The translations under genes were made by a program, and so were the position numbers. A stretch of DNA of 64,000 nucleotides from Chitinophagales bacterium (GTDB taxonomy: Bacteria > Bacteroidota > Bacteroidia > Chitinophagales > JADJOU01), in the NCBI GenBank assembly GCA_016787225.1, contig JAEUUY010000005.1, forward strand, positions 62,001-126,000. Direction: 5' to 3'. Below, piece after piece: positions 4,543 through 49,274 of the stretch (its first letter is position 1; each line of letters begins with the position of its first letter). A model generated the notes under the pieces. That model had not been told where the DNA came from, ran no database searches, and saw only the letters and a program-made list of their open reading frames with translations.

Positions 4543-4580
4543 TTATATGTATTTTATGTTACTTTTTTATTTTGAGGGTG

Positions 4581-4608: not shown

Positions 4609-4696
4609 GGTATTAATTTTAAACAAAACCGACTATTAGACTGAAAATCTAACTAATATGGTAAAAAACTAGTCTTCAGAATACGAAAGATTGGTA

Positions 4697-8356: not shown

Positions 8357-9141
8357 AAAGCATTGATATAGATAGGTTGATAGACATAGCTATCCAAGCT
8401 GGACAGGCTATTATGGATATCTATAATCAGCCTTTTGACATCATAACGAAAGGAGATGGTTCCCCACTAACTCTTGCAGACAAGAATGCAAATAAAATTA
8501 TCACCGATTATCTGTTTTCAAAATATACCATTCCTATATTAAGTGAGGAGAATGATGATATCTCTTATGAAATAAGAAAAAACTGGAAACAATTATGGAT
8601 TATTGATCCTCTGGATGGCACAAAAGAATTTATTCATAAGCGCAGAGAATTTACGGTCAATATAGCATTAGTAGAAGAAGGTAAACCTATATTAGGCTTA
8701 ATATATGCGCCTGTCTTCAAGGAACTCTATTTCGCTATAAAAAATCAAGGCAGCTATTTTGTTTATCGAAACGAAAAGGTAAGAATTCAGTCTAAATCTG
8801 CACTGAAATTTGATAATAAATCTTTTCATAATATTAATAAACCTCATCTTAAAGTTATACTATCGCGCTCACACAACGATGGTTTTGTATTAGAAGACTA
8901 TATACAACAACAGGATTATACTATTCAAGCCCTAGCTATGGGGAGTTCGTTAAAGTTTTGCCGTATAGCTCATGGTATCGTCGATATGAATATCCGTATG
9001 AAACCAACCTCAGAATGGGACACAGCTGCTGCGCAAATAATACTAGAAGAGGCAGGTAGGCATCTGGTAAAGTATGAAGACGGAACACCCTTAGATTATA
9101 ACAAAGAAAATGTTTTAAATCCTTATTTTGTGGCTTATTAG
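8332..9141 (+). CDS. cysQ: 3'(2'),5'-bisphosphate nucleotidase, CysQ-like
   Basis: An inositol-monophosphatase-superfamily enzyme of CysQ type, expected to hydrolyse 3'-phosphoadenosine-5'-phosphate to AMP. The metal-binding motifs are present: SEEND, then WIIDPLDGTKEF, and EWDTAAAQIILEEAG near the C-terminus. An in-frame ATG at 8311 would give 276 residues and a 46-base overlap with rfbD. The ATG at 8332 (269 residues, 25-base overlap) starts closer to where the family alignment begins and is preferred. In the context of a polysaccharide operon it may recycle PAP from sulfation, or act on another phosphorylated sugar or nucleotide; no sulfotransferase is in the window. Confidence 0.85.
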   Translation: MYSSITPIESIDIDRLIDIAIQAGQAIMDIYNQPFDIITKGDGSPLTLADKNANKIITDYLFSKYTIPILSEENDDISYEIRKNWKQLWIIDPLDGTKEFIHKRREFTVNIALVEEGKPILGLIYAPVFKELYFAIKNQGSYFVYRNEKVRIQSKSALKFDNKSFHNINKPHLKVILSRSHNDGFVLEDYIQQQDYTIQALAMGSSLKFCRIAHGIVDMNIRMKPTSEWDTAAAQIILEEAGRHLVKYEDGTPLDYNKENVLNPYFVAY

Positions 9142-9152
9142 TTTTCGACTTT

Positions 9153-10856: not shown

Positions 10857-10922
10857 CTTTATTATTTCTAAGCGCCATTTTTTGTCGCTATAATTTTTCA
10901 TATTTGCTATAAAATTAGCGAT

Positions 10923-11099
10923 ATGAAAAAAGAAATTGTTAACGACAATACATTTGAACTAAAAAAAGAAATCAAAAAAACGTTTGACACTATGCTGAAG
11001 GATGTAATCAAAGGTAAGGTAAGCGTGCAAGACTTCACACAAAAAGTCAATCAAAATTATATGATACGGAAGATGGAGTTATCTGGAAGTTTATTCTAA
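10923..11099 (+). CDS. Small charged hypothetical protein (58 residues)
   Basis: ATG at 10923, TAA at 11097-11099. The predicted protein is 58 residues, rich in Lys, Glu and Asp, without hydrophobic segments, and probably helical (MKKEIVNDNTFELKKEIKK ... NYMIRKMELSGSLF). The first codons are clean and the gene sits directly after the Wzi-like gene on the same strand. Its last bases overlap the end of the convergent gene at 11096-11470. No family is recognised. A real small gene is plausible, judged only from open frame, amino-acid composition and position. Confidence 0.45.
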   Translation: MKKEIVNDNTFELKKEIKKTFDTMLKDVIKGKVSVQDFTQKVNQNYMIRKMELSGSLF

Positions 11100-11470
11100 A
11101 GTACCCTCAGAATATTAGAAATTACATTTTTTGAGCCTTGAACCTTGCCTTCAAAACGATATCCATCTGCATAAACGTCAGTAATACGTATATGCAGTTT
11201 TCGATTTCTAAAAAAACTAACCTGGTCATTATTCCCATCGATAACTGTTAATTCATATTCACATTCATTTAACCATTTCACATTAAATCGAATGAATTTA
11301 CCAGTCTTTAAATCTGTTTCTATTTGCTCTGTTGCAGTTCGCTCTATGCGGACATGAATATTTCCTTTTTGTTCGAAAAGAATAAACTTGCCTGTTCTAT
11401 AAGCATTGCAACTCAATGCCATACCTTCAAGACTAAATAACAAAAAACCTATGAATATATATAACTTCAT
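11096..11470 (-). CDS. Small secreted protein of unknown function
   Basis: 124 residues starting with a signal peptide (MKLYIFIGFLLFSLEGMALS). The mature part has the pattern CNAYRTGKFILFEQ, then VRIERTATEQIE, then VKWLNECEYELTVID. I have the impression this recurs in short conserved proteins of many Bacteroidota, without an assigned function. Two cysteines could form a disulfide outside the cytoplasm. It follows murB by 2 bases on the minus strand and is last in a tyrS-murB unit. No catalytic motif is visible. Confidence 0.65.
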   Translation of the reverse strand: MKLYIFIGFLLFSLEGMALSCNAYRTGKFILFEQKGNIHVRIERTATEQIETDLKTGKFIRFNVKWLNECEYELTVIDGNNDQVSFFRNRKLHIRITDVYADGYRFEGKVQGSKNVISNILRVL

Positions 11471-11472
11471 CG

Positions 11473-12483
11473 TTATCCTATCATATTTACCTCTCTTTCA
11501 AGGACAAAGTTAAACCTTTTTTTCACCGCATCGATAACTTTCTCAGAATATTCATAAATCTCTCGCCCACTGGCATTACCATAATTTACTATCACCAAGG
11601 CTTGATCTTTATGACTTCCCGTATTACCTTCTCTATAACCTTTAAAACCACACTGCTCTATCAGCCAACCTGCCGGTATTTTTACCCTATCTCCATCAGG
11701 GAAATGTGGGGCATTAGGAAATTCTTGTAACAATACATTAGCCTGTGATTTTTCAACAACGGGATTTTTAAAGAATGACCCTGCATTACCAAGTTTCGCA
11801 GGGTCTGGAAGTTTCGAACTTCTAATTTCTATAACAGCATTAGATATATCTCGATGATTAGGGTGCTCTATACCCTTAGCTTTCAATACATCTTGAATAT
11901 TACCGTAACTAGCCTTAATAGGTGAATTATGGGAAAGCTTTACATGCACCTGATAAATAAAATATTTATCCTTCAAAGCTCTCTTAAAGACACTCTCTCT
12001 GTATCCAAATTCGCATTCCATCTTATTGAATTTTCTCAATTTACCTGTAGAAAGCTCTAATGCATCAACTTGAATACAGACATCCTTAAATTCCACACCA
12101 TAAGCACCAATATTCTGCATAGGTGCAGCGCCTACTGTGCCGGGTATCAAGGACAAATTCTCTAATCCATTATATCCTTTATCCAGCGTCCATAAGACAA
12201 ACTCGTGCCAGGATTCCCCTGACATGGATGAAACATAGAAATCATTCTCATTAATAGGTTTTGCTTCAAGACCCTTTATCTGATTGACAACGACTAAGCC
12301 GTCAAAATCATCAATAAATAAAACATTGGAACCACCACCGAGAAACATAAATTTTTCAATCTTGAGTCTGGGAAGTAAATTTATGACATCCTCTAAACTC
12401 TTTACTATGATTAGCTCTTTAGCCATAGCTCCAATACCAAAGGTATTGTATGATTTTAAGGAAGCTCTCAAACTCGATGCCAA
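11473..12483 (-). CDS. murB: UDP-N-acetylmuramate dehydrogenase (MurB)
   Basis: FAD enzyme that reduces UDP-GlcNAc-enolpyruvate to UDP-MurNAc in peptidoglycan precursor synthesis, in the cytoplasm. It has 336 residues, the length of the E. coli-like class. Family motifs are NTFGIGAMAKE, the FAD-binding LGGGSNVLF, SLIPGTVGAAPMQNIGAYG, YRESVFK and the catalytic-Ser segment GSFFKNP. PAGWLIEQCGFKG and HKDQALVIVNYGNASG follow. It starts 9 bases after the tyrS stop and is followed by the small secreted protein after 2 bases, indicating one operon. Confidence 0.97.
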   Translation of the reverse strand: MASSLRASLKSYNTFGIGAMAKELIIVKSLEDVINLLPRLKIEKFMFLGGGSNVLFIDDFDGLVVVNQIKGLEAKPINENDFYVSSMSGESWHEFVLWTLDKGYNGLENLSLIPGTVGAAPMQNIGAYGVEFKDVCIQVDALELSTGKLRKFNKMECEFGYRESVFKRALKDKYFIYQVHVKLSHNSPIKASYGNIQDVLKAKGIEHPNHRDISNAVIEIRSSKLPDPAKLGNAGSFFKNPVVEKSQANVLLQEFPNAPHFPDGDRVKIPAGWLIEQCGFKGYREGNTGSHKDQALVIVNYGNASGREIYEYSEKVIDAVKKRFNFVLEREVNMIG

Positions 12484-12492
12484 AACAAATAC

Positions 12493-13770
12493 TTAAACTA
12501 ACTCAACAAAATAATAATTCTTTTTACCTTGTTGAACTAAAATCAACCTTTCGTGTAGAACATCATTTGCACTCACTTTGTAATCTAGGGTTACTTTTGA
12601 TTTATTAATACTGATTGCATTTTCACCTAGCTTTTGACGCGCTTGTCCATTGGATGGAAAAATATTTGTTCCTGAAACTAGAAACTCTGTAATATCCATT
12701 CCCTGAGATAATTTATCTCGAGATATCTGGTATTGATTCAATCCCCCGAATACTTCTTTTAATCCTTCGTATGAAGCAGATTTTAATTCATTCAATCCGC
12801 CAGAAAACAGCAAACTACTCAAAGAAACCGCTTGTTCATAATCTACATCACTATGAATCATAGTGGTTAATTCCTGACCAAGAGACTTATGAATACTTCT
12901 CAAATGAGGGGCTGTCTTAAACTCCGCCTCCATCGCCTCTATCTCTTCTTTACCCTTAAATGAAAATCTTCTATTTAAGTTGAGAATTTCATCATCTGTT
13001 CTATTCAAAATAAATTGATATAGTTTGTAAGGGGTTGTCAAAGTTGGGTCTAGCCACACATTTTCGCCTGCTTCGGATTTACCCATTTTTGTACCATCAG
13101 ACTTAGTCACCAAAGAACTAGTAATAGCATAAACTTTTTCACCCATAATTCTTCTCACTAACTCAACACCTGTCGTGATATTACCCCATTGATCGCTTCC
13201 ACCTAATTGTAACTTGCAATTGTAGTTTTTATACAAATGAAGAAAATCATAGCCTTGAATCAATTGATAAGTAAATTCTGTAAAAGATATGCCCGATTCT
13301 AAACGATTTTGAACACTATCTTTACTCATCATGTAACTCACTGTAATATGTTTTCCCACATCACGAATAAAATCTAAAAAACTAAAATCTTTGAACCAAT
13401 CATAATTGTTAACGAGAATCGCATCATTCTTACCATTTCCAAATTCGATAAACTTCTCAAGTTGTTTTTTCTGACTTGCAATAAATGAATCGATCTCATC
13501 GATAGATAATAATGTCCTCTCCCCTGTCATCTTAGGGTCACCTACACGACCAGTAGCACCTCCCATCAGTGCTATAGGTTTATGTCCAGCCAATTGCAAT
13601 CGCTTGAGGAGAACGATTTGTTGAAAATTTCCTAAGTGAAGAGAACTAGCAGTAGGGTCAAAACCGATATATCCAGTTGTTGATTCTTTCTGTAATTGGT
13701 TCTCTGTCTCAGCGACACAATCCTGAAATTTTCCTCTCCACTTTAACTCTTCTATAAAATTAGTATTCAC
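12493..13770 (-). CDS. tyrS: Tyrosyl-tRNA synthetase
   Basis: Class I aminoacyl-tRNA synthetase charging tRNA-Tyr. It has 425 residues, like the bacterial TyrRS. The HIGH-type signature is HLGN at residues 45-48, preceded by GFDPTASSL. YDFLHLYK and the tyrosine/ATP pocket LGGSDQWGNITTG follow. The KMSKS loop reads KMGKS. The C-terminal S4-like tRNA-binding domain is intact (SGGLNELKSA ... INKSKVTLDYKV). It is the first gene of the tyrS-murB unit. Confidence 0.97.
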   Translation of the reverse strand: MNTNFIEELKWRGKFQDCVAETENQLQKESTTGYIGFDPTASSLHLGNFQQIVLLKRLQLAGHKPIALMGGATGRVGDPKMTGERTLLSIDEIDSFIASQKKQLEKFIEFGNGKNDAILVNNYDWFKDFSFLDFIRDVGKHITVSYMMSKDSVQNRLESGISFTEFTYQLIQGYDFLHLYKNYNCKLQLGGSDQWGNITTGVELVRRIMGEKVYAITSSLVTKSDGTKMGKSEAGENVWLDPTLTTPYKLYQFILNRTDDEILNLNRRFSFKGKEEIEAMEAEFKTAPHLRSIHKSLGQELTTMIHSDVDYEQAVSLSSLLFSGGLNELKSASYEGLKEVFGGLNQYQISRDKLSQGMDITEFLVSGTNIFPSNGQARQKLGENAISINKSKVTLDYKVSANDVLHERLILVQQGKKNYYFVELV

Positions 13771-32996: not shown

Positions 32997-33383
32997 ATGA
33001 TAGAAAAACTTATATACGAAAGTAAAAAATCCAAGATTTATTTTCAGAGTGAAAGTGAATGGGGAATCCCCGTTTTAGTGAAAATTTGTAATTATGAGTT
33101 TCCAACACCCAAAGAAATTGCTCAGTTTTATAACGAGTTTGATTTATTAGAAGGACTCCATCTCAAGCATACCAGAAATGTACTAAAAAAATCAAAAGAA
33201 AAGAACAGACACGCCATATATCTCGAATGGATAGAAGGCAATACTATCACTGAAATATTTAAAAATAAACAAGGCGATATTCTTGATTTTTTACATATAG
33301 CTATTGCATCCTCGAGTGCCTTAGCAGAAATACACCATAATGATATCATTCATAAAGATATAAGCCATTTAATTTATTGGTAA
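32997..33383 (+). CDS. N-terminal protein-kinase lobe fragment
   Basis: 128 residues covering the small lobe and start of the large lobe of a eukaryotic-type Ser/Thr kinase. VLVKICNYEFPTP carries the probable ATP-anchoring lysine in subdomain II, and AIYLEWIEGNTITEIF is the hinge. LAEIHHNDIIHKDIS is the catalytic-loop start with the usual HRD as HKD. The frame then ends HLIYW and a stop because of the frameshift. On its own it lacks the catalytic-loop Asn and DFG and would be inactive. Read it as the 5' part of 32997-38101. Confidence 0.7.
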   Translation: MIEKLIYESKKSKIYFQSESEWGIPVLVKICNYEFPTPKEIAQFYNEFDLLEGLHLKHTRNVLKKSKEKNRHAIYLEWIEGNTITEIFKNKQGDILDFLHIAIASSSALAEIHHNDIIHKDISHLIYW

Positions 33384-36300
33384 ATTTACAAGAGAGGACG
33401 GTTAAAATCATCGACTTTGGGATTTCATCACGAATAGATTTAAAACAGCACTCCATAAGTAATCCAGAGACATTAGAGGGCACTATCACTTATAACTCCC
33501 CTGAACAAACGGGTAGAATGAATCGTAAAGTAGATTATAGAACTGATCTCTATTCACTTGGGGTTACTTTCTATGAAATGTTATATGGACAGCCTCCATT
33601 TGTCTCTCAAGATGTCATGGAACTTGTTCATAGTCATATTGCGATAACCCCTAAGGAGCTAAATCAATTGAATCCAAGCATTCCTAAACCAATTTCAGAT
33701 ATCATCACTACACTTCTATCCAAGAATTCAGAAGATAGATATCAATCTGCAGAAGGATTAAAGCACGATTTGGAGATTTGCTTGCGTGAATATGAAAAAA
33801 CTAAACAAATACCTAATTTTGAGTTAAGACAAAATGATTATTCAGGCAAATTTGAAATTCCTCAAAAATTATATGGAAGGGAGAGTGAAATTAAATCTTT
33901 ATTAAACTCATTTCATAATTGTACACTTGGAACACAAGAAATAGTATGGGTCGCTGGATACTCAGGAACTGGGAAGTCTGCGCTCGTGAGAGAAGTTCAC
34001 AAGCCAATAACGCAAAAAAAAGGTTATTTTATCGAAGGTAAATATGATCAGTTTCAAAGAGCCATGCCCTATTATGCCATCCTTCATGCTCTAGGTGAAT
34101 TCATCAATATTATTCTAACAGAAAAGGAAGAGAAACTAGCACTATTTAAGGCGAAAATTCAAGATGCTGTAGGGAGCGAAGGGAAAGTCCTTACAGATGT
34201 TTTGCCACGGCTGGAGCTTATCATAGGAGAACAAGTATCTGTTCCAGAATTAGGAGGCGCAGAGGCGCAGAATAGATTTAACTATATCTGTAAAAAATTT
34301 GTTTCGGCAATTTCTTCAAAGGACCACCCTTTGGTTTTGTTTATTGATGATTTGCAATGGGCAGATTCTGCTTCTATAAATTTATTGGATGTATTGCTCT
34401 CAGACAAATCGAATGGGTACATTTTATTTATTGGAGCCTATCGGGATAACGAAGTGAATGCAAGCCACCCTTTTGTTCTACTCCAAAATGAATTGGGTGA
34501 GAAGGGTATAAATATGTCAAGCATTCATGTCGAGAATTTAAATCTAGAAAATTTAAATGATTTGATTTCGGAATCTGTAAATGAGTCCAAATCTATAACA
34601 CGACCACTTGCAGAGCTGGTTTTTTCAAAGACTCAGGGAAATGCATTTTTCTCAACACAATTTTTAAAAACTTTATTTTCAGAAAAACTATTACAATTCA
34701 ATTTTGCAAATAATAAGTGGCAATGGGATATTGAAAAAGTTAAACTACAAAACATTTCAGACAATGTAGTAGACCTCATGGCCAATAAGACTAAACAATT
34801 TACAGATGAAACCCAGGTATTGCTCAAAATAGCTGCTTGTATAGGGAATCAATTTTCATCCAGTGCCTTAGCGATTATCAGGAAAAAAGAAATCTCTGTA
34901 ATTCACCTAGATTTATTTGAGGCTTTGAAAGAAGGGTTTATAATACCTGCAGGTGAAAACTTTCGTTTCTCGCATGATAGAATTCAACAAGCCGTTTATT
35001 CAACAATTCCCGATAATGAAAAAAATAGTTTACATCTAAGTATCGGAAAACTTTTATTAGAGAATATCTCCGAAGAAGAAAAAGAAGAAAAACTATTTAG
35101 TATTACAAATCAATGGAATTGTGGAAAGGAATTAATCACATCCGAAGAGGAGAAGGAACAGTTAGCATTGTTAAATTTGGAAGCTGGAGTTAAAGCGAAA
35201 CAAAGTTCGGCTTTTAAGCCAGCACTGGATTATTTCGATACAGGAATTAGTTTGCTGAAACATGAACCATGGAAGAATCAGTATAAGCTCACGATTGACT
35301 TATATACCTATGCTATGGAAGCAGCCTATCTCAACGGAGACTTCAATGCCATGGATCAAAAGTATAAAGAAGTATTGGCTAATTCAAAAAATCTGTTAGA
35401 AAAGGTAAAACCATATGAAATTAGAATTCTAGCATATAAAGCAGAAAACAAATTAATTGATGCTATTAATACAGGAAGGGAGCTTCTGGCTCAATTAGGA
35501 GAGACATTCCCTACTAAAGCAAGGCTAGTTCATGTCATGTATAATTTATTGAAGATAAAATTAATGCTCTTTAGGAAGGATAATTATAAACTGGAAAATC
35601 TTCCTACAATGACCAATGAACATAAAATAGCTTCCATGCGCATTCTAGCCGACATAGCTTCTTCTAGCTATTGGGCAGTGCCTACATTTTTTCCATTGGT
35701 CATTTTTCGAATGGTGGAACTTTCATTAAGATATGGCAACACAGCAGTATCATCGTTTGCATTTGCTACCTATGGTGTTATCATGTGCGGTGTATTAGAA
35801 GATATGAAATCAGGCTATTCTTTCGGAAAGTTAGGCCTTGTTTTATTAGATAAATTCAAAGCTAAAGAATGGAAAACTCAGGTATTTACTCCTATTTATG
35901 CTTTGATCAATATATGGAATGAACATGTGCACAATACATTAAGACCACTGCAAGAATCCTATCATATTGGATTGGAAACAGGAGCCATCGAATTTGCTTG
36001 TATCAATACAAACATTTATTGTATCAATGCATATCTCAGTGGGAAACCATTGCCTAGACTTGAAATAGAAACCAAAGCTTACAGTGATAGTTTCAAGTCA
36101 TTTAAGCAGGAGACGAATTACAATTACAATGAGGTTTATCGCCAGGCAATGTTAAACTTTATGGGGAGATCTGCATCCCCTATAGTTTTGACAGGTGAAG
36201 CCTATGATGAGGAAAAGATGATGAATCAGAATACGGAAAGAAACGACAAAACCGGAACTTTCTTTATTCATTTCAACAAAATGATATTGTGTTATTATTT

Positions 36301-36595
36301 CGAAGATTATGAAAACGCTTTGCATCATTCCGCTCAGTCTAGATTGCTTTTGGAAGCAGTTTTAGCTAAGTTTGAAATACCAAATCATCATTTGTATGAA
36401 TCGCTCATTATGTTAGCCCTTTATCCAAAAGCTAATAGAACTAATCAGAAACGTTATATGAGTTCCATTAAGAGCAATATGAAGAAGATGAAAAAATGGG
36501 CAAAGGATGCTCCAATGAATTATCTTCACAAATACGACCTGTTGGATGCTGAGGTTCACAAGGCTCTGGGTGAAACGAATAAGGCTCGATTATAG
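33377..36595 (+). CDS. Kinase C-lobe plus AAA ATPase and helical repeat fragment
   Basis: 1072 residues. They begin in mid-kinase with VKIIDFGISSR (DFG), TITYNSPEQTGRMNR (activation segment) and YRTDLYSLGVTFYEML. An AAA_16/MalT-like ATPase follows: P-loop AGYSGTGKSALV with Lys at residue 200, and Walker B LVLFIDDLQWAD. Long helical, TPR-like sequence fills the rest. The apparent start Met is an artefact of the frameshift; codons upstream of it already encode kinase sequence. The frame ends at an in-frame TAG with the same protein continuing beyond. In the family the ATPase and helical region act as a regulatory platform between kinase and output domain. Confidence 0.75.
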   Translation: MVNLQERTVKIIDFGISSRIDLKQHSISNPETLEGTITYNSPEQTGRMNRKVDYRTDLYSLGVTFYEMLYGQPPFVSQDVMELVHSHIAITPKELNQLNPSIPKPISDIITTLLSKNSEDRYQSAEGLKHDLEICLREYEKTKQIPNFELRQNDYSGKFEIPQKLYGRESEIKSLLNSFHNCTLGTQEIVWVAGYSGTGKSALVREVHKPITQKKGYFIEGKYDQFQRAMPYYAILHALGEFINIILTEKEEKLALFKAKIQDAVGSEGKVLTDVLPRLELIIGEQVSVPELGGAEAQNRFNYICKKFVSAISSKDHPLVLFIDDLQWADSASINLLDVLLSDKSNGYILFIGAYRDNEVNASHPFVLLQNELGEKGINMSSIHVENLNLENLNDLISESVNESKSITRPLAELVFSKTQGNAFFSTQFLKTLFSEKLLQFNFANNKWQWDIEKVKLQNISDNVVDLMANKTKQFTDETQVLLKIAACIGNQFSSSALAIIRKKEISVIHLDLFEALKEGFIIPAGENFRFSHDRIQQAVYSTIPDNEKNSLHLSIGKLLLENISEEEKEEKLFSITNQWNCGKELITSEEEKEQLALLNLEAGVKAKQSSAFKPALDYFDTGISLLKHEPWKNQYKLTIDLYTYAMEAAYLNGDFNAMDQKYKEVLANSKNLLEKVKPYEIRILAYKAENKLIDAINTGRELLAQLGETFPTKARLVHVMYNLLKIKLMLFRKDNYKLENLPTMTNEHKIASMRILADIASSSYWAVPTFFPLVIFRMVELSLRYGNTAVSSFAFATYGVIMCGVLEDMKSGYSFGKLGLVLLDKFKAKEWKTQVFTPIYALINIWNEHVHNTLRPLQESYHIGLETGAIEFACINTNIYCINAYLSGKPLPRLEIETKAYSDSFKSFKQETNYNYNEVYRQAMLNFMGRSASPIVLTGEAYDEEKMMNQNTERNDKTGTFFIHFNKMILCYYFEDYENALHHSAQSRLLLEAVLAKFEIPNHHLYESLIMLALYPKANRTNQKRYMSSIKSNMKKMKKWAKDAPMNYLHKYDLLDAEVHKALGETNKARL

Positions 36596-36661
36596 TATGA
36601 CAAGGTCATATCTGGAGCAGCTAGTTCAAGCTATACTCACGAGGTAGCCCTTTCGTATGAA

Positions 36662-38101
36662 TTGGCAGGAAAACTCTATCTGAGCTTAAACTCAGAAGAT
36701 TTAGCAGAGTTTTATTTTAAAGCAGCATATAATGCATATCGAGAATGGGGAGCCGATGCTAAACTCAACCATTTAGAGCAATCATATCCAAAATATGTTT
36801 CTGGCGTGCAAAGACAAGAGTCTACTTTAAGTCAAAAGTCAGTGGTGAAGTCTACCACTTCTATGGTACAAAGTACAGTGCTAGATATCACATCAGTTCT
36901 CAAGGCAGCTACTGCTATCTCAGGGGAAATTATTCTTTCTAAACTATTGAATAATTTGATGAATGTCGTTATTGAAAATGCAGGCGCACATTATGGTTTT
37001 CTAATTTTAGATAGAGATGGTGAATTGATGATAGAAGCGATGATCAATAAGGAAAACCACGACACGAATATCTTAGATCATATTTCAATAAAAAACACAG
37101 AACTCCTATCAGAGGCTATCGTAAACTATGTCAAGCGAACAGGTGAAAGTATCGTCATCAATGATGCTGCGAATGACAATCGGTATCACAGTGATCCTTT
37201 TATATTAAAAAATAAGTCAAAATCAATTCTGGCACTTCCAATATTCAACCAAGGTAAATTTATTGGAATTCTTTATCTCGGTAACAATCTAAGTATTGGA
37301 GCATTTACCCAAGATCGTATAGATTTATTATCTCTTCTCTCAGGTCAAATAGCCGTCTCTATAGACAATGCTATCCTTTATGATCAAATGGAACAAAAAG
37401 TAAAAATTCGCACATCAGAACTAGCGGAAGAAAAAAGGAAATCAGATGATTTATTGTACAATATTTTACCTATAGAAACGGCAGAAGAGTTGAAACGAGA
37501 TGGAAGAACTAAGCCAAGAGGTTATGACAATGTAACGGTTCTATTCACAGACTTCAAAGGATTTACTATGATATCTGAAAAATTAACAGCCGAGGAGATT
37601 GTAAATGAGATAGATTTATGTTTTGGAACCTTTGATAAAATAATGGAAAAATATAATTTAGAAAAAATAAAAACAATAGGAGATGCTTATATGTGTGTCG
37701 GTGGACTGCCTGTTCCTAATTCTACGCATGCCTTAGATGCCGTGAAAGCGGCTATCGAGATAAAAGAATGGGTGCAGCAACATGGAGATTATTGCAGACA
37801 AAGAAATCTTCCTGTATTTGAGATTAGAATAGGACTCCATACTGGACCAGTAGTTGCAGGAGTTGTAGGTTCCAAAAAATTTGCTTATGATATTTGGGGC
37901 GATACAGTAAATATTGCAAGTAGGATGGAATCCAGCGGTGAACCGGGTCAAATCAATATTTCCGGAGCTACCTACAATCTGATTAAGAATTATTTTCAAT
38001 GCAAGCACAGAGGAAAGGTTCAAGCAAAGAACAAAGGAGAAATTGATATGTATTTTGTAGAAAGAGAATTAATGAATGGGGAAAGACAAAAAGCCAGCTA
38101 A
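36662..38101 (+). CDS. GAF domain and class III adenylate cyclase fragment
   Basis: 479 residues. A helical end piece is followed by a GAF domain, roughly residues 90-250 (SILALPIFNQGKFIGILYL), a short coiled segment and a class III nucleotide cyclase domain. Metal-binding Asp residues are D297 (LFTDFKGF) and D341 (TIGDAYM). Purine-selecting K337 and D410 (FAYDIWGDTVN) are of the adenylate type, and transition-state N417 and R421 are kept (NIASRM). All cyclase residues are intact, so this part could still make cAMP if translated. The nominal start is a TTG chosen only because of the upstream stop; the frame is continuous with the preceding sequence from 36596. Confidence 0.8.
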   Translation: MAGKLYLSLNSEDLAEFYFKAAYNAYREWGADAKLNHLEQSYPKYVSGVQRQESTLSQKSVVKSTTSMVQSTVLDITSVLKAATAISGEIILSKLLNNLMNVVIENAGAHYGFLILDRDGELMIEAMINKENHDTNILDHISIKNTELLSEAIVNYVKRTGESIVINDAANDNRYHSDPFILKNKSKSILALPIFNQGKFIGILYLGNNLSIGAFTQDRIDLLSLLSGQIAVSIDNAILYDQMEQKVKIRTSELAEEKRKSDDLLYNILPIETAEELKRDGRTKPRGYDNVTVLFTDFKGFTMISEKLTAEEIVNEIDLCFGTFDKIMEKYNLEKIKTIGDAYMCVGGLPVPNSTHALDAVKAAIEIKEWVQQHGDYCRQRNLPVFEIRIGLHTGPVVAGVVGSKKFAYDIWGDTVNIASRMESSGEPGQINISGATYNLIKNYFQCKHRGKVQAKNKGEIDMYFVERELMNGERQKAS

Positions 38102-38118
38102 ATCAAACACAAATTTTT

Positions 38119-40284
38119 ATGACTAAGGAAGAAATCAAAAAAATTGTCGAAGAATGTTATAATAAGACTAAAATTATATATACCGATAAAGGAAAATTTT
38201 TCGATCCGAAACTAAAAAGTATTAATCATTTAGAAGTTGGCAATTCAAAAATCATCAATAGTTGGCTTACTATACTAATTGAATTTTTTATTGCATTTTT
38301 AACAAGAATTTCAAAACGAATAAAGCAATGGTGGCATAGAATGACACCACGCAAGGATATCATCTATGGAACTGATTTTAATAGCACAGTAGTAGGAAGA
38401 ATCACATTCGGCAAAAGGAATGATTTGGCGATTCCTATTCATAATAAGCGAGTGGAATTATGGGTGAGGACTCGTTTGTTTCAATGGAGAAAATTAAGCG
38501 CTGGACGAACAGATCGAAATGGATATTTTGAACTACCATTTGATTTTATAGCGGCACGCAATTGGTGGAATCGCGCCAATCTGCGATTTGAAATATATGA
38601 AATGACGGGGCTAGTAACAATAGGTGGGAAACTACAACCAAATAAGAAACTCTTTAAGACTTTATTGATTCCCAAATCTGATTTGATAGGAATGAGCTAT
38701 AGCCTGGGAGTTATACAACTCTTTTTTTGGGAATATAGAGACGACACTAGAATACCTAGGGTATTCATAAAGAACCATGATGAAGACGCACCTGAGGAGT
38801 ATACCGAAGGTAGGACGGTGTCTATGAGTGAACAATTTATCCCTATAGAATTGACCAAACAAAAACATCTCTTGCAAATTCGGCGAGAGCCAGAATCTAT
38901 CAATTTGCAAACAATACAGGATGATTATCCAGAGAACTTGACCGTAGCCATCGAAAAAAGACTTCCTGGATATACTCGTGGAGATGACTGGTTCGGAGAA
39001 CGGTTTATGAATGGAATGAGTATGGCTACATTTATTCCTGACACAGAGAATCCAGCTCACTATTGGATCAAGTTTTTTGGAGCTGGATTATATGAAGTCA
39101 ATGAAGAATATGCATTTCCTACTGCTAAAATAAAATTTAAATTAAAAGAAGATGGATTGCCTACTCCTATTGAAATAAGACTCATAGGGCCTTTAAATGC
39201 TATAAACAAAGACCCATATGAGGAGCATGTCTATACACCTCAAGATGGTGAAAAATGGCTACAGGCAAAACGAGCAGCCAGAGTCACAAGCGCATTATGC
39301 GGTGAAATAGATCAGCATTTGGCTGGCACTCATCTCAATACGGAACAATATTCTATCGCAGTTCATAGGAATTTAAGACTCAATCCTATTGCTCGACTTT
39401 TATTGCCACATGTAAAAGAAGTAGCTTTGATAGATCATTCGGCAGATAAACTCTTAATAAAAGATTATCTACCAAACGCTACGGCATTGACGACTAACTC
39501 ACTTTTACAGCGCGCAGAAGATCTTTTAGGTTTTCAAGATTGGAAAAATTGGCAACCTATGAATCCAATATCAGAGGCACATACCTATGCAAAGGCTGAA
39601 ACACTTTTTTGGAATGTATTGAGAGAATGGGTGGATCTTTTTGTTGAAGAAAATGATGAAGAGATTAAAAAGTATTGGTACGAAATTTACTTATTTAGTA
39701 AGGATCTAGTTTCTCACTCCGTTCCTCTATATGGTTCAAACCTAGATTGGGAGACATTATCTGATCTGGACAAAAATTATCTCAAAGAACGAATCGAATA
39801 CCTCAGTCAAGAGTATCGAATAAATTTCAATAGTCCGCGAGAGAAAGTTGATAATATAACAAAAGTAATTTCCCCCGTAACGCTTTCTGAAGAGTATAAT
39901 CCCAATTCTAACGATTGGCAAAATTTGAAAGATATGTGTTGCTATGTAATAATGACGGCTACCTTCCTGCATACTTGGATCAATGAACATCAATATGAGG
40001 ATATAGGTGAAGTATTATATAGTTGTTTAGGACTGCGATTTGGAGAGAAAGAACAGGGTATTATGTCCCCAGAATCAGACTACAGTATAGCACCAGACCT
40101 CACAAGAAGTACACAGATGATGTGGTTTAGCAATTTTCTATCAAGAACGGAATATGGATTTATCGTGAAGAATGAAGATGGCGATATGGATCCTCGATTG
40201 ATAGAAATGTTTTTAGCTAAGAAAGAAGAATTTAAGAAATACAATGTAGCAATAGACCAAATTGAATCACGCACTAATATTTAA
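38119..40284 (+). CDS. Lipoxygenase-family non-heme iron dioxygenase
   Basis: 721 residues. The C-terminal catalytic domain shows the lipoxygenase pattern: GDDWFGERFMNGMS at its start, then QHLAGTHLNTEQYSIAVHR with iron ligands H400 and H405 (H-x4-H), then LNPIARLLLPHVKEVALID. FLHTWINEHQY carries H618 and N622 (H-x3-N), and the chain ends in isoleucine 721, the C-terminal ligand. All five iron ligands are therefore present with family-like spacing. The N-terminal region has a hydrophobic stretch (WLTILIEFFIAFLTRI, about residues 50-65), suggesting membrane association. Beyond it, a beta-rich domain (VELWVRTRLFQWRKL) could correspond to a transthyretin-like or PLAT-like module. It should insert O2 into polyunsaturated fatty acids; substrate and regiospecificity are unknown. 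The 3' end overlaps the catalase-like gene. Confidence 0.88.
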   Translation: MTKEEIKKIVEECYNKTKIIYTDKGKFFDPKLKSINHLEVGNSKIINSWLTILIEFFIAFLTRISKRIKQWWHRMTPRKDIIYGTDFNSTVVGRITFGKRNDLAIPIHNKRVELWVRTRLFQWRKLSAGRTDRNGYFELPFDFIAARNWWNRANLRFEIYEMTGLVTIGGKLQPNKKLFKTLLIPKSDLIGMSYSLGVIQLFFWEYRDDTRIPRVFIKNHDEDAPEEYTEGRTVSMSEQFIPIELTKQKHLLQIRREPESINLQTIQDDYPENLTVAIEKRLPGYTRGDDWFGERFMNGMSMATFIPDTENPAHYWIKFFGAGLYEVNEEYAFPTAKIKFKLKEDGLPTPIEIRLIGPLNAINKDPYEEHVYTPQDGEKWLQAKRAARVTSALCGEIDQHLAGTHLNTEQYSIAVHRNLRLNPIARLLLPHVKEVALIDHSADKLLIKDYLPNATALTTNSLLQRAEDLLGFQDWKNWQPMNPISEAHTYAKAETLFWNVLREWVDLFVEENDEEIKKYWYEIYLFSKDLVSHSVPLYGSNLDWETLSDLDKNYLKERIEYLSQEYRINFNSPREKVDNITKVISPVTLSEEYNPNSNDWQNLKDMCCYVIMTATFLHTWINEHQYEDIGEVLYSCLGLRFGEKEQGIMSPESDYSIAPDLTRSTQMMWFSNFLSRTEYGFIVKNEDGDMDPRLIEMFLAKKEEFKKYNVAIDQIESRTNI

Positions 40285-41413
40285 CACTATGGATTTAAAA
40301 AAGAAACCATCAAAACGATTCTCACTTATCAATATATTTATAGATTGGCTGAAAGCTAAATATGATTTTTTTATACTTTGGCTAACTGCACGATTTTTTG
40401 CACTAGGACTTGTTTTCATGCTCGTGCTCCCAAAGCGCTATCGTATGTCACATAACAACGGCATAGCTGGTGAAGGATCTGCTCGTATAGTAGATGACCC
40501 TAAATTTCCAGCCCATGATTTTTTTAGACCTGGCAAAGTTTTCCCAGCTCGCATAAGACATGCAAGTGCGACATTTTTAGATGATGCAATGAATTGTATT
40601 CGGAGTTGTTCTGTTAAATTTTCGGATGAACATTGGAACAGCCCATTTGACTTAGAATGCAATACAGGGATCATTAATTTATTTTGGTCTGCTTCTAGTT
40701 TTTTACAATTTGCCAAAATGAGAGCACAAAAGTGGGGAGTAGAATACCATGATTACTATCGAAAGTATCCTGAGGGTTTGAAAGGAGCACAGTTATCTCT
40801 TCGAAGAAATCCCACATCATTCACCAATTTACATTACTATGGTTTAACACCTTTTTTGTTTATAGGAATGGATGAAATCAAGCGATACGCAAAATATAGG
40901 GTGTTACCTCTTAAAGATGAACCAGAAACTGGAATCACCCCAGATATGTGTGATTATGACACATGTAATCAGAGAGTGCTCCCTCATGAAAAAAATGGAA
41001 GAAACTATTTAAAAGACGAATTTGTAAATAGAGTAGCTTCTGAAGGAGCCCACTATCGATTGCAAATTCAAACAAGAATAGCCAATGATGACGATAGCCC
41101 TGAAATATTTAACAATCAAAAACCATGGGATGAGAAGGTTTTCCCTTGGCATGACCTAGCTATTATTAATATCAATAGAAACTTGAGTTGGGAAGAAAGC
41201 ACACTGACTAGCTTTTCTTTAAATAATATGCCGAAATCATTAGGAATTATACCCGCCAAGTCAATTCACGATTATAATTCACTAAATTATATGCGCGCTA
41301 ATTCTGAAATAGCTAGAAAAGCAAGAATATTTTCGTACAAGATAAAAGGAATGCCACCTCAGATTCCAGACGATGATAATCGCAATGTTTCGGACTGGTC
41401 TGGAAAAGAATAG
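40262..41413 (+). CDS. Catalase-like heme protein, allene oxide synthase/hydroperoxide-metabolising type
   Basis: 383 residues from ATG 40262 (overlapping the lipoxygenase by 23 bases), or 374 from ATG 40289. An N-terminal hydrophobic segment (FFILWLTARFFALGLVFML) suggests membrane association. The core shows a minimal catalase fold: PARIRHASATFLDDA with candidate distal His100, CSVKFSDEHWNSPFDL, ECNTGIINLFW, RRNPTSFTNLHYY. Near the C-terminus ARIFSYKIKG gives R355-x3-Y359, the proximal heme-ligand motif of catalases (RLFSY). Its length and the position of R-x3-Y close to the C-terminus resemble coral allene oxide synthase (374 residues, Tyr353), not the 480-700 residue true catalases. With the lipoxygenase next door, it probably converts fatty-acid hydroperoxides. 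The exact product (allene oxide, aldehydes, epoxy alcohol) cannot be read from sequence. Confidence 0.75.
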   Translation: MNHALIFNTMDLKKKPSKRFSLINIFIDWLKAKYDFFILWLTARFFALGLVFMLVLPKRYRMSHNNGIAGEGSARIVDDPKFPAHDFFRPGKVFPARIRHASATFLDDAMNCIRSCSVKFSDEHWNSPFDLECNTGIINLFWSASSFLQFAKMRAQKWGVEYHDYYRKYPEGLKGAQLSLRRNPTSFTNLHYYGLTPFLFIGMDEIKRYAKYRVLPLKDEPETGITPDMCDYDTCNQRVLPHEKNGRNYLKDEFVNRVASEGAHYRLQIQTRIANDDDSPEIFNNQKPWDEKVFPWHDLAIININRNLSWEESTLTSFSLNNMPKSLGIIPAKSIHDYNSLNYMRANSEIARKARIFSYKIKGMPPQIPDDDNRNVSDWSGKE

Positions 41414-44070: not shown

Positions 44071-44793
44071 ATGAGAAAACTTTGCTATGTCATCTTTTAT
44101 TTACTAATAACAAATTATGGTTTTGCTCAGCAGTCCATTGTTGCCCAACCTAAATTATTGAAATATACCCAAGATTATAAAGTTGGATATAAGAATCAAA
44201 ACGGGGAAGTCGTGATACTGAATAAATATACAGCAGGTAGCGAGTTTGAGAATGGCTATGCAATTATTCTCATAGGTTCTAAACGGGGTTATTTAGACCA
44301 ATATGGCAATGAGAGCATTCCTCCTCAATATCAAGATGCTTCACCATTTTACTATGGACTGGCCTGTGTTAAGAAAGATGGTTATTATGGTTATATCAAT
44401 CCACAAAACCAATGGGTCATCAAAAATACCTTCCAAAATGCATTTAGCTTCTATGAAGGAGTAGCACGTGTACAGGTCAATGATAAGTGGGGATTGATTA
44501 ATCTGAGAGGAGAATTTATCCTGCCTCCAGACTACCTAGATATCAAAGACTGCGCTTTTGGCTTGATTCTTGCTAAAAAAGATAAACTTTACGGTTACCT
44601 TAGACCAGACGGACGTTGGAAAATTTCTCCTCAGTATGAGCAAGCTATGTCTTTTATCTATGATGGCACCGCAGAGGTGATAATGAATGGTAAAACCTAC
44701 CTTATCAATCAGCAAAATGAAATCATAAGAGAGGTCAATCATGAAGAAGAACATGAAGAAACGGAGAGAAAATATAAAGCAGGATTAAAATGA
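44071..44793 (+). CDS. Secreted WG-repeat protein
   Basis: 240 residues with a signal peptide (ends NYGFAQ). Consecutive WG (KWG-type) beta repeats follow: KRGYLDQYGNESIPPQYQDA, then YYGYINPQNQWVIKNTFQNA, KWGLINLRGEFILPPDYLDI and LYGYLRPDGRWKISPQYEQA. WG repeats are beta hairpins thought to bind protein or ligand; the partner is unknown. The stop overlaps the start of the next gene by four bases (ATGA), so it is made together with the 1494-residue T9SS-type protein. Confidence 0.85.
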   Translation: MRKLCYVIFYLLITNYGFAQQSIVAQPKLLKYTQDYKVGYKNQNGEVVILNKYTAGSEFENGYAIILIGSKRGYLDQYGNESIPPQYQDASPFYYGLACVKKDGYYGYINPQNQWVIKNTFQNAFSFYEGVARVQVNDKWGLINLRGEFILPPDYLDIKDCAFGLILAKKDKLYGYLRPDGRWKISPQYEQAMSFIYDGTAEVIMNGKTYLINQQNEIIREVNHEEEHEETERKYKAGLK

Positions 44794-47700
44794 AATGGCT
44801 ACAAGTCCTTATTCTCAGTGCATTTTTTAATAGCCTCAGCTATGGACAAAATGGTGGTGTGTGGACTTGGATTCATGGTGATACAATTCTAGGAGTGAAA
44901 AACTATGGGGTTAAAGGAGTGCCATCTCCAAGTAACTTACCCCCTGGTAGATATCATCCTGCATTTTGGCAAGATAAAAATGGTAAGTTCTGGATCTTTA
45001 GTGGTTCGCCAGCCCCTTCTGATATGTGGATGTATGACCCTTTAACGAATGTATGGACATGGATGAGTGGCGATTCTACCCAAACAAATGGTGTTTACGG
45101 TACTAAAGGAGTACCATCCACTAGCAACTATCCAAAATGGAGAGGGTGGGGTGCAAGCTGCTGGACAGATAGTATAGGTGATTTGTGGATGTTTGGTGGT
45201 TCAGGCTGTAATGACTTATGGCGATATCATATTCCTACCAATGAATGGACATGGATGAGCGGAGACAATCCAAATACAGGGCTTACTACTGGTAGAAATT
45301 ATGGAACTAAAGGTGTATCATCTACCTCAAATTTTCCTGGTACACGAGCAGAATGTAAGTCAAACTGGGTATATCATAATGAGCTTATTTTTTTTGGAGG
45401 TAGTAGTTTCAATGATGTGTGGTCATATTCTATATCAGGGAATGTATGGACGTGGATTGGTGGCAATAATGCTAGTTCTACTCCTAATTATGGTACTATG
45501 GGGGTCTCAAGTCCTTCTAACAATCCACCTGGAGCAAATCATACCTATACACGTTGGAAATCTGGAAGTAAATTGTTTGTTTTTTCTTTTGGTTCTAAAA
45601 ATGATGTTTGGAGTTTTGATATGAACAATAAACAGTTTACATGGGAATTGGGACAAAACCCATCTTCCAATACTGGTATTCCACCACCAGCAAATTGCGT
45701 TGTAGGAGGATATTTCCCTAAAGCCAGGGGTGAAAATCATACAGTTCAAACTACAGATTGCAATAGAGCTTTCTGGACATACGGTGGAGGTGATTGTGAT
45801 TTATGGCTATATAGGCTAACTACTAATGATTGGATGAGGGTTAGTAAAAATTCTAATTCAAATTGTCGACCAATATACGGCTCGAAAGGTATTACGAATC
45901 CTTTAAATCATCCTGGAAATAAATATGGTTTCCCGATGTGGACAGACGACAATAATAATTTATATATTTTTAGTGGTCATATAGGGTCTAATGATTTATG
46001 GAGGTTTGAGCCCGATATTGCTTGTATAGGAACAGTGCTCAATGCTAGATCAATTTATAAACCTAACAAAACCTCAATTTGCACTTCTAATGATTCTGTA
46101 GTATTAACTCTAGACACCATTCTATATAATGTTACCTGGAATCCCACAAGCAATGTGACAGTTAATGCAGACACTTCACGTTTAGTGTTTAAATCTAGTA
46201 TTAAGACTGACTATATGGTCACTGCCTTCGGCGGCAAGTGTACAGCCATTGATACTTTGCGATTTACTGTGAATATGGGTAGTCATACCTTTGATACCTT
46301 AATAGATACAACCTGCCTTATCGGCAAATACCCATTTAGTCAAAGTGGAATTTATGACTATGTTATTCGGAACGCTAGCGGTTGTGATAGCAATATCCGT
46401 CTTCAGCTTACTATGAGAAATAATATTGATACCACCAAGGCGGAGATATGCAAAGGAAGTACTTATTTATTTCAAGGTAGCAATTATTCTACAACGGGGA
46501 TATATCAAAAAAACTATAAAAATCAGTATAACTGCGATAGCACCAAAGTGCTTGTATTGAAGGTAAATAATCCGGATACAGTCTATGTCAAACAAACTAT
46601 ATGCATGGGTGATACGTTTACCTATCGTGGAAATAAATACACTGCTTCTGGAAACTACAATTTTGCAAGTGGTTGTGGAATGGATGTATTGTCTTTATGG
46701 GTAAGACCTAAAGATTCATTTGTGATCTTCGATACCTTCTGTACTGGAGATACGTTTAAATATCAAGCGCATCGCTATAATAGCGCAGGAACATACTCGC
46801 ACAAATATACCAACTCTGATGGCTGTGATAGCTTTATGGTATTTAATCTACATGTAAAAACCAAGACCAGTGATACCATACGCATAGACTCCATTATATT
46901 CGAAAATCTCTGTTCTATTAATAATAAACGTATTTATATTTTCCCATTAAATACAGATTTCAAAAATAAATATTCTCGTGATTTCGGATATAATTATCAG
47001 CCAGCTAGTATTTTCTATAATCTGATTGCTGGTACTTATCCTATTCGTATTAAGCGAGGTTGTGCCTTCCTTGACACTCCTGTTACACTGCCTTATAGGG
47101 AAAGAGACACCTCTGTCATCAATGATGAAACTTGTGAACTTTTTCCATATTATTTTAATGGAAAATACATCACGAAAACAGGAGTCTATTGGGATACTTT
47201 TACCAATGTTTATCAATGTGATAGTTTTATTAAGTTAAATTTAATTGTTCACAAGACGGATTCATCAACTATTCGTGATACGATATGTAGAGGAGATACG
47301 GTAATATTTGATGGAATACCAAGAGCAGTGGCTGGGGTATATTACCAGCGTATCAAACTCTTCGAAGGCTGCGATAGCACAGTTAAATTTATACTCTCTG
47401 TCAAGCGCCGTGATACCATGATTCATAATCGAAGCATCTGCCAGGGCGATACCTTAAATTTTGCTGGCAACAGATATACTGAAGCTGGTAGCTACAAATT
47501 AAGCTATATAAATAAACATGGCTGCGATAGCTTTGTTCACCTAAATCTTACAATCAAGCGTCGTGATACTTTTTCTTTTAATGACACCATTTGCCGAGGT
47601 AGTAGTAAATTGTTTGAAGGAATTGCCCATAAGATTAGCGGAAATTTTGTATATAAACTGACGAATCGTGAAGGATGTGATAGCTTTAGAATATTAAATT

Positions 47701-49274
47701 TAGTGGTGCAGCGCCAAGATACCCATACGTTGAAGTATGCTAAATGTATCGATGACTCTGTTATTCATGGAGGTGTCACCTATAAAACAACAGGAATTCA
47801 CAACAAGCTTTATAAAAATATCTTCAACTGTGACAGTTTAGTCATTCTCGATTTGAAGTTTTCTAATTTTGAAATTGAAACTATAACTAAAAGTATATGT
47901 CCTGGGGATAGTTATGAAGGATATAAATTAGTGGGAACCCATCACGATACTATCAAACGCAAGGGTAAATGTGATTCTATCAGAGAATTGATTTTATCAC
48001 ACACACCTATCCCTATTACCAAGCTGTCGCCGAGTATATGTAAGACGAAAGTATATACCTATAGGAGTAAGTCTTATTCTCAAGCTGGAGTTTACTATGA
48101 TACGATTTTGACTTCACGAAACTGTGATAGTATTATTGAAATAGGTTTAACCGTATTCGATACGAGTTTTTCTACTTTACATTATTCCATTTGCAAAAAT
48201 GAAACCTATTTATTCAACAATCAATATCTCAGCCAGCCTGGGATATATAAAGATACCTCAGTAAATCATCTTGGCTGCGATAGCTTTATTTATCTAACTT
48301 TAGGATATAGACCGCCAATATATGATTCAGTGAGAGTGGAGAAATGTTTTGGAGAAAGCTACAGAGGATATACTAAGACAGGAACTTATAGAGATACTAT
48401 TCAAACAGCAATCGGCTGCGATAGTATTTTGAAAATAAATTTGAAGATACTGGCAGGACCATATCCATTTGAACAAAAGCTGGAGGATTGTAAATCGATA
48501 CTGTTTAAAAACAAACTGTACACCAATTCAATTTTGATACATGATACACTCTATAATAAACTGAGTTGCGACTCCGTTTATCGTAAAACGAACATTCTAA
48601 TAAGACCTAAACCACAGAAAGGACCATTGGAATACCTCACTTTCTGTGACTCTATTCGTATGTCGGATGGCAAGGTCTATCGATTCAATTTTAGCTATCA
48701 GGATACGATAAAAACTAAAGATGCTCTGGCTTGTGATAGTTTATATCTGCCCAAACAATTAGAAAAAAAGACTAGAGTCAATCTCACTATTTCGGTTATT
48801 CCTAAGTTTGATGAGTATTTCAAAGGTGAGAAAGTGGAACTTACTACCTATCCAGCTAAAAAGCTTTTCTGGACAACGGGCGATACCATAGCTAAAATTA
48901 AATTAGTATTAAATGAAGATCAAATGATAGAAGTGATAGGTTGGGATAGTGAAGAGTGTAAGGATACCGCAGCTATTTCGCTTCGTGTGATAGAACCAGG
49001 TCTTCTCGACATCCCCAATGCTTTCGCACCAAGTGGTATGCCAGAAAATAGAATATTCAAACCTAATTTTAAAGGTATGGTAGAAATCACGCGTTTTGAA
49101 ATCTACAATCGATGGGGTGAGAAAATTTATAGCACCAATACCAAAGATAATATTGGCTGGGATGGCACCTACAAAGGCGAAGATGTCCCAAGTGGACTAT
49201 TCTCTTACTTACTAGAGTACAAAGTCAATCGTCATACCTTTTTCAAATCTGGGGAAGTGCTGTTGGTGAGGTAG
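44790..49274 (+). CDS. Large T9SS-type surface protein: kelch-like head, divergent CDSF repeats, CHU_C tail
   Basis: 1494 residues. A signal peptide (ends LSYGQ) is followed by a kelch/galactose-oxidase-like propeller, about residues 20-410, with repeated VWTWMSGDS ... GTKGVPSTSNYP ... DLWMFGGSG blocks. About fifteen divergent repeats of the same family as in 20647-27957 follow (GCDSFVHLNLTI, NCDSIIEIGLTV, GCDSILKINLKI; upstream half TICRGDT or SICQGDT). A gliding-motility/CHU_C domain closes the protein (IPNAFAPSGMPENR, IYNRWGEKIYS, GWDGTYKGEDVP, SGEVLLVR). Its stop is only 3 bp from the end of the convergent TonB receptor gene, with no terminator between. A secreted surface protein or adhesin is inferred. 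Confidence 0.88.
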   Translation: MKWLQVLILSAFFNSLSYGQNGGVWTWIHGDTILGVKNYGVKGVPSPSNLPPGRYHPAFWQDKNGKFWIFSGSPAPSDMWMYDPLTNVWTWMSGDSTQTNGVYGTKGVPSTSNYPKWRGWGASCWTDSIGDLWMFGGSGCNDLWRYHIPTNEWTWMSGDNPNTGLTTGRNYGTKGVSSTSNFPGTRAECKSNWVYHNELIFFGGSSFNDVWSYSISGNVWTWIGGNNASSTPNYGTMGVSSPSNNPPGANHTYTRWKSGSKLFVFSFGSKNDVWSFDMNNKQFTWELGQNPSSNTGIPPPANCVVGGYFPKARGENHTVQTTDCNRAFWTYGGGDCDLWLYRLTTNDWMRVSKNSNSNCRPIYGSKGITNPLNHPGNKYGFPMWTDDNNNLYIFSGHIGSNDLWRFEPDIACIGTVLNARSIYKPNKTSICTSNDSVVLTLDTILYNVTWNPTSNVTVNADTSRLVFKSSIKTDYMVTAFGGKCTAIDTLRFTVNMGSHTFDTLIDTTCLIGKYPFSQSGIYDYVIRNASGCDSNIRLQLTMRNNIDTTKAEICKGSTYLFQGSNYSTTGIYQKNYKNQYNCDSTKVLVLKVNNPDTVYVKQTICMGDTFTYRGNKYTASGNYNFASGCGMDVLSLWVRPKDSFVIFDTFCTGDTFKYQAHRYNSAGTYSHKYTNSDGCDSFMVFNLHVKTKTSDTIRIDSIIFENLCSINNKRIYIFPLNTDFKNKYSRDFGYNYQPASIFYNLIAGTYPIRIKRGCAFLDTPVTLPYRERDTSVINDETCELFPYYFNGKYITKTGVYWDTFTNVYQCDSFIKLNLIVHKTDSSTIRDTICRGDTVIFDGIPRAVAGVYYQRIKLFEGCDSTVKFILSVKRRDTMIHNRSICQGDTLNFAGNRYTEAGSYKLSYINKHGCDSFVHLNLTIKRRDTFSFNDTICRGSSKLFEGIAHKISGNFVYKLTNREGCDSFRILNLVVQRQDTHTLKYAKCIDDSVIHGGVTYKTTGIHNKLYKNIFNCDSLVILDLKFSNFEIETITKSICPGDSYEGYKLVGTHHDTIKRKGKCDSIRELILSHTPIPITKLSPSICKTKVYTYRSKSYSQAGVYYDTILTSRNCDSIIEIGLTVFDTSFSTLHYSICKNETYLFNNQYLSQPGIYKDTSVNHLGCDSFIYLTLGYRPPIYDSVRVEKCFGESYRGYTKTGTYRDTIQTAIGCDSILKINLKILAGPYPFEQKLEDCKSILFKNKLYTNSILIHDTLYNKLSCDSVYRKTNILIRPKPQKGPLEYLTFCDSIRMSDGKVYRFNFSYQDTIKTKDALACDSLYLPKQLEKKTRVNLTISVIPKFDEYFKGEKVELTTYPAKKLFWTTGDTIAKIKLVLNEDQMIEVIGWDSEECKDTAAISLRVIEPGLLDIPNAFAPSGMPENRIFKPNFKGMVEITRFEIYNRWGEKIYSTNTKDNIGWDGTYKGEDVPSGLFSYLLEYKVNRHTFFKSGEVLLVR

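Follow-up and report, generated by a model that had tools for sequence, protein, structure and literature searches.

We analysed a window of 64,000 nucleotides from a Chitinophagales bacterium (contig JAEUUY010000005.1, positions 62,001 to 126,000, forward strand), in which a lipoxygenase (LOX) gene is directly followed by a gene whose product is homologous to coral allene oxide synthase (AOS). The LOX and coral AOS folds, conserved residues in both proteins, the loss of the axial heme-ligating tyrosine from the AOS-like protein and a conserved linkage of both genes to a giant kinase/cyclase gene were all observed. We consider that there is an even chance that the locus is a three-gene module (LOX, coral AOS homologue and kinase/cyclase) for lipid-hydroperoxide synthesis and signalling. 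Its two enzymes most likely represent a lipid-hydroperoxide pathway, i.e. a hydroperoxide-making and hydroperoxide-converting pair, to which the module would add a signalling output.

The lipoxygenase and the AOS-like protein

The identity of the first gene as a lipoxygenase is well supported. The encoded protein belongs to Pfam family PF00305 (36.3 bits; cut-off 23.6) and matched the Cyanothece LOX 5ek8 in a sequence search with an E value of 1.8e-97 across residues 93–720. AlphaFold2 models of this and the AOS-like protein were built with window and locus sequences as sole input; that of the LOX (predicted local distance difference test, pLDDT, 89.1; predicted template modelling score, pTM, 0.90) aligned with 5ek8 (CspLOX1) at Z 44.9 over 615 residues, from model residue 44 onwards, while other LOXs reached Z values of 28.4 at most. 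The iron ligands that an earlier note on this DNA had read from the open reading frame (ORF) of 721 codons, i.e. H400, H405, H618, N622 and the C-terminal I721, were unchanged across 35 homologues. Dioxygenation of polyunsaturated fatty acids would be the predicted activity. The Coffa-Brash position (reference positions in Table 1 of PMC5437038) is occupied by Ala442, Ala in 35/35 aligned homologues, and therefore S rather than coral R oxygenation is predicted by the Coffa-Brash rule, which has known exceptions, e.g. CspLOX2 (PMC5437038).

The AOS-like gene starts with an ATG at 40289, 4 nucleotides past the LOX stop codon, and the gene overlap described earlier arises solely if a TTG at 40262 is taken as the start. 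The catalase-fold protein predicted in that note was recovered directly downstream of the LOX: it matched the coral AOS domain (1u5u/3dy5) with an E value of 1.5e-54, the next PDB sequence having an E value of 0.22, and scored only 14.1 bits against the Pfam catalase family PF00199, under the cut-off of 25. The match to coral AOS, like that of the LOX to 5ek8, greatly exceeds what chance would give. Its model (pLDDT 90.1; pTM 0.88) aligned with 1u5u at Z 43.4 (root mean square deviation 1.7 A, 329 residues), compared with at most Z 26.6 for full catalases. Sequence and modelled fold together identify the protein as specifically a coral AOS homologue, more than a generic catalase. The suggested hydrophobic N-terminal segments were confirmed in both proteins, as helices at residues 49–75 of the LOX and as one helix at residues 13–49 of the AOS-like protein; by inspection, neither carries a cleavable signal peptide. 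Searches of NCBIfam gave no match for either protein.

The predicted heme pocket of the AOS-like protein

Residues R64/T66/H67/R102/N137, which make up the distal set of the coral enzyme (PMC5617202), correspond to R52/S54/H55/R90/N125 in the AOS-like protein, with Ser replacing Thr. S54, H55, R90 and N125 were each found in 47/47 homologues, and R52 was Arg in 43 and Lys in 4. The RHAS motif had previously been taken to hold the distal His; instead, R90 of 'RIRHA' is equivalent to the cAOS (coral AOS) heme-contact residue R102, and it is S54-H55 that align with coral T66-H67.

Coral R349 and R360 correspond to R336 and R346, both Arg in 47/47 homologues. The alignment is ungapped through DYNSxxxxR, after which coral Y353 is left unmatched, with one residue fewer between S339 and E340 (a gap in the MAFFT alignment). 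Throughout the AOS-like clade the Tyr353 position is either a gap or a non-Tyr residue, and no Tyr occurs at residues 335–343 in any of the 47 homologues; structural alignments place the Y353 segment at model residues 339–341, as judged from the alignment end points. The RIFSY sequence once proposed as the proximal R-x3-Y motif does not fill this role, and its Y350 is Tyr in 35/47 homologues. Y334 (Tyr in 45/47) is one candidate replacement for the axial ligand, no other plausible ligand in this region being invariant. According to the alignments, the AOS-like proteins are a distinct clade of putative heme proteins that has lost the coral axial ligand, and we did not class them as cAOS because of this missing Tyr.

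The equivalent of coral position 150 is Phe138 in 47/47 homologues. This position is Leu in cAOS and Phe in the coral hydroperoxide lyase (cHPL); the F150L substitution moves cHPL toward AOS, and L150F in cAOS leaves the product unchanged (PMC5617202). At this one site, the sequence of the AOS-like protein therefore resembles a hydroperoxide lyase. The likeness to coral AOS-LOX drawn in the earlier note hence holds for fold and family and fails for the axial Tyr353; the hydroperoxide-making and -converting pair is still the best reading, its second step being weakened by the clade-wide absence of this Tyr and by Phe138.

Linkage to a giant kinase/cyclase gene

A scan of 84,980 species genomes yielded 50 loci. 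In other Bacteroidota, where the earlier note had proposed to look for it, the gene pair recurred: LOX and the AOS-like gene were neighbours in all of the Bacteroidota-group genomes first found (8/8) and in 41/43 Bacteroidota-type loci. Of the remaining two, L034 has its LOX elsewhere in the genome and L065 is a short contig on which the gene is partial. The third recurrent gene, which the earlier note had overlooked and which in the window lies upstream of the region considered, encodes a Ser/Thr kinase-AAA_16-TPR-like-GAF protein of ~1,680–1,830 amino acids with an adenylyl cyclase (most linked copies) or a histidine kinase at its end. No other neighbour of the AOS-like gene is as conserved as this kinase/cyclase gene, which adjoins the LOX/AOS-like pair in 39 of the 40 Bacteroidota-type loci whose contigs allow the test (L030, L046 and L065 excluded). 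Most linked copies keep the domain order kinase-AAA-TPR-GAF and the HKDxxxxN, DFG, P-loop and cyclase motifs. Since several gene orders were seen, namely kinase-LOX-AOS, kinase-AOS-LOX (Lewinella group), LOX-AOS-kinase (Balneolales group) and a divergent arrangement (L038), the linkage outlasts rearrangement.

Of 395 genomes of the phylum, 6 carry the AOS-like gene, 7 a genuine LOX and 20 the kinase; all 6 AOS-like genomes possess both LOX and kinase (hypergeometric values of 1.4e-12 for LOX and 7.6e-9 for the kinase, not exact probabilities as the genomes are related). One LOX match (G198, L074) was rejected as a PorP/SprF protein. Abundance of the kinase was likewise rejected as the source of its linkage, given this low overall frequency and the single full-length copy in most AOS-like genomes. 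LOX was also encoded in all six further AOS-bearing genomes, some of which had no LOX visible beside the AOS-like gene. Distances between AOS-like, LOX and kinase sequences correlate (r 0.68–0.86; 0/2000 permutations as high), and in the kinase tree 34 linked kinases form one clade, the L038 copy coming from another. Identity to the AOS-like protein of the window was 57% in a genome of the same genus (G395) and 66% in Limnovirga, a member of another family, a pattern that suggests horizontal transfer. No AOS-like relative was found in the viral contigs searched, and the plasmids searched gave just weak catalase-like matches on Sinorhizobium plasmids.

In the window, the kinase gene (32997–38101, forward strand) lies immediately upstream of LOX and is broken twice, with neighbouring genes intact (Table 1). 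Its reading frame shifts at ~33363, downstream of HKDI(S) within the catalytic loop, and the 69% identity to the intact Limnovirga kinase runs on in tblastn past the later in-frame stop codon. The cyclase motifs FTDFKGFT, KTIGDAY and YDIWGDTVNIASR are intact in the 3′ piece, which ends 17 nucleotides ahead of LOX. A real inactivation is possible because the other long ORFs of the window are open. A promoter and terminator scan gave the same counts as in shuffled sequences.

Table 1. Positions of the features discussed, numbered from the first nucleotide of the window (aa, amino acids).
Feature	Position	Strand	Description
Kinase, 5′ piece	32997..33383	+	N-terminal Ser/Thr kinase lobe; tblastn: residues 1–123, frame +2, 72% identity to Limnovirga kinase
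Kinase, middle piece	33377..36595	+	Remaining kinase domain, AAA_16 ATPase, TPR-like region (Pfam AAA_16, Pkinase); in-frame TAG at 36593–36595
Kinase, 3′ piece	36662..38101	+	GAF domain (Pfam GAF, 58 bits), then class III adenylyl cyclase (Guanylate_cyc, 187 bits)
LOX, 721 aa	38119..40284	+	CspLOX1-like, with a beta and a catalytic domain following membrane-type N-terminal helices
LOX A442	39442..39444	+	Coffa-Brash position; aligned with CspLOX1 Gly401 and coral Gly800
Coral AOS homologue, 374 aa	40289..41413	+	Hydrophobic N-terminal helix, then catalase-type fold without axial Tyr
AOS-like R52-M53-S54-H55	40442..40453	+	Distal heme side (motif RMSHNNG); coral R64, A65, T66, H67
AOS-like R336...R346	41294..41326	+	Coral R349...R360; counterpart of axial Tyr353 absent between S339 and E340

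In Myxococcota and related loci, the kinase was located within 10 kb of every AOS-like copy checked, usually adjoining it, and LOX was adjacent (L060), near (L061 and L135) or elsewhere in the genome. Two Planctomycetota loci have a differently built Ser/Thr kinase-AAA-TPR protein ahead of the AOS-like gene. Metagenome-assembled genomes (MAGs) underlie the Rhodobacteraceae, Roseiarcus, Arenicella and Acidiferrobacterales records, the taxonomy of which may therefore reflect binning error.

Several individual arrangements were also recorded. In L034 (9524–11038) the AOS-like protein forms a fusion with a LOX-type N-terminal domain; the LOX itself is on another contig (L123). The myxobacterium G499 holds two AOS-like copies (one interrupted), a kinase and a LOX within ~15 kb (L135), and a third AOS-like copy with its own kinase elsewhere (L136). 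A Bdellovibrionaceae contig (L059, 1014–3613) encodes a cytochrome P450 (PF00067, 127 bits) that overlaps the AOS-like gene by 4 nucleotides. In L098 (G076, 4240–13263) a LOX without an AOS-like gene is divergent from a 472-amino-acid gene and from a further member of the kinase family. Away from LOX and AOS (L095–L106), kinases of this family adjoin other enzymes of redox or small-molecule type; inspection of the translations pointed to FAD oxidases and to carotenoid-oxygenase-like, methyltransferase and KatG-like proteins. The family may thus partner small-molecule pathways in general. Elsewhere in the window (44790–49274), we noted by inspection a protein of 1494 amino acids with a kelch-like start, many GCDS-motif repeats and a C-terminal tail resembling those of gliding or type IX secretion proteins.

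Readings of the locus and known systems

In the proposed module, N-terminal helices would anchor the LOX to the membrane, and the enzyme would oxygenate polyunsaturated acyl chains, giving a hydroperoxide predicted to have the S rather than the coral R configuration. The AOS-like protein, also membrane-tethered, would take this hydroperoxide into its cAOS-like pocket and convert it. Because the axial Tyr is absent, we expect a heme with an altered or absent protein ligand, and a reaction that gives a lyase-like product or that of another isomerase, not the allene oxide made by corals. The giant kinase would then respond to this product, or to the lipid hydroperoxide itself, with a cyclic AMP or phosphorelay signal. 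Heme binding, the polyunsaturated substrate, the product and its sensing are thus what we infer for the module, and the direction might also be the reverse, the kinase controlling the enzymes rather than sensing their product. That the whole represents a conserved bacterial lipid-hydroperoxide circuit, in which LOX makes the signal, the Tyr-less catalase-fold protein reads or converts it and the kinase/cyclase hybrid relays it, is a more tentative proposition, to which we give less than an even chance.

Several points weigh against the module. The Tyr that defines heme ligation in catalases and cAOS is absent, so that heme catalysis is not assured, and we know of no enzyme of the AOS-like clade that has been assayed. 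Desaturase-family genes are present, which by themselves do not demonstrate synthesis of polyunsaturated fatty acids. Algoriphagus lacus (L050) possesses the LOX/AOS-like pair with no adjacent kinase, and the related kinases beside other enzymes indicate that adjacency may reflect general regulation and not oxylipin sensing. In the window itself, the frameshift and stop codon may mean that the circuit is broken in this genome, or that the assembly is in error.

The loss of Tyr from 47/47 homologues in several phyla, with an invariant distal pocket, would also suit a non-enzymatic AOS-like protein that binds lipid hydroperoxides made by LOX and serves, possibly through heme, as a co-sensor for the kinase. 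In line with this, the AOS-kinase link persists where LOX is elsewhere in the genome (Archangium, Gemmata and a Flammeovirgaceae MAG), and the L034 protein with the LOX-type N-terminal domain directly follows the kinase; the distal catalytic residues, however, match those of a working enzyme, and we regard a pure co-sensor as possible but rather unlikely. An ordinary coral-type AOS-LOX pair that makes allene oxide and ketols, and whose expression or activity is under generic control by the kinase, has in its favour that coral cAOS is the closest solved homologue by both fold and sequence. It would have to accommodate the missing Tyr353, Phe138 in place of coral L150 in 47/47 homologues, as in cHPL (PMC5617202), and Ala442 in place of Gly800 of coral LOX, and we judge it improbable.

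We think it similarly improbable that the products are aldehydes or other oxylipins for chemical defence or interaction with algae, predators or competitors, the kinase/cyclase adjusting their production to some other cue. The patchy distribution over phyla and the related kinases beside other redox or small-molecule enzymes are compatible with such a role, but no recurrent transporter or secretion gene was seen at the loci read, and neither protein appeared by inspection to have a cleavable signal peptide. Finally, a functionally unrelated LOX and catalase-like gene that are neighbours by chance can practically be discounted: we found no point in support, and the adjacency (8/8 genomes and 41/43 loci), the several gene orders and the correlated distances refute it. 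The hydroperoxide synthesis and signalling module remains our preferred reading.

The closest parallels are the coral AOS/HPL-LOX fusions (Plexaura homomalla 1u5u/3dy5; Capnella imbricata cAOS and cHPL), which share the pairing of a catalase fold with LOX. Equivalents of the cAOS distal residues are kept and both proteins have 374 amino acids, whereas the bacterial genes are separate, mostly with LOX first, and have a kinase/cyclase partner; the axial Tyr353 is absent and position 150 is Phe. The bacterial LOX also differs from coral LOX by its membrane-type N-terminal helices and by an Ala where the coral enzyme has the Coffa-Brash Gly. Among solved LOX structures, CspLOX1 of Cyanothece PCC 8801 comes closest, at 31% identity over a structural alignment that takes in part of the N-terminal helical region, but it is a 9R-LOX with Gly401. 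Likened by description, the catalase-LOX fusion of the cyanobacterium Acaryochloris marina likewise joins a bacterial catalase-related domain to LOX (PMC11719350). In that organism the two are fused, whereas here they are encoded by separate genes. We know of no kinase link for the Acaryochloris protein.

Cyanobacterial HstK is a multidomain Ser/Thr kinase-GAF-histidine kinase. The fungal Mak2, Mak3 and Chk1 proteins share with the linked kinases an N-terminal Ser/Thr kinase, GAF and a histidine-kinase output, a likeness of domain architecture; unlike these fungal proteins and HstK, the bacterial kinases described here mostly end in an adenylyl cyclase, and their genes form operon-like clusters together with those for LOX and the AOS-like protein. 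In S. pombe, Mak2 and Mak3 are required for H2O2 signalling (PMC3644883, PMC5383687). The oxylipin quorum-sensing system of Pseudomonas aeruginosa (ODS, OdsR) shares the idea of bacterial oxylipins as signals (PMC6377657), but consists of diol synthases and a LysR-type regulator, and is described without LOX, catalase-fold protein or kinase.

A 2024 review places LOX-bearing bacteria in Cyanobacteria and Proteobacteria and considers the biological function almost untested (PMC11011848). Our literature search, outside which subscription papers fell, returned no report of a Bacteroidota LOX, of LOX-AOS-kinase clusters or of this kinase architecture. In Bacteroidota-type loci LOX recurs in physical linkage with a coral AOS homologue and a sensor kinase/cyclase, and does so in culturable isolates, which opens the role of bacterial oxylipins to direct testing. 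That the axial Tyr is lost across the clade from an otherwise kept catalase-type heme pocket presents a clean biochemical puzzle. If the proposed circuit is real, bacteria would have their own counterpart to the oxylipin signalling of eukaryotes, and the catalase fold would have gained a new use.

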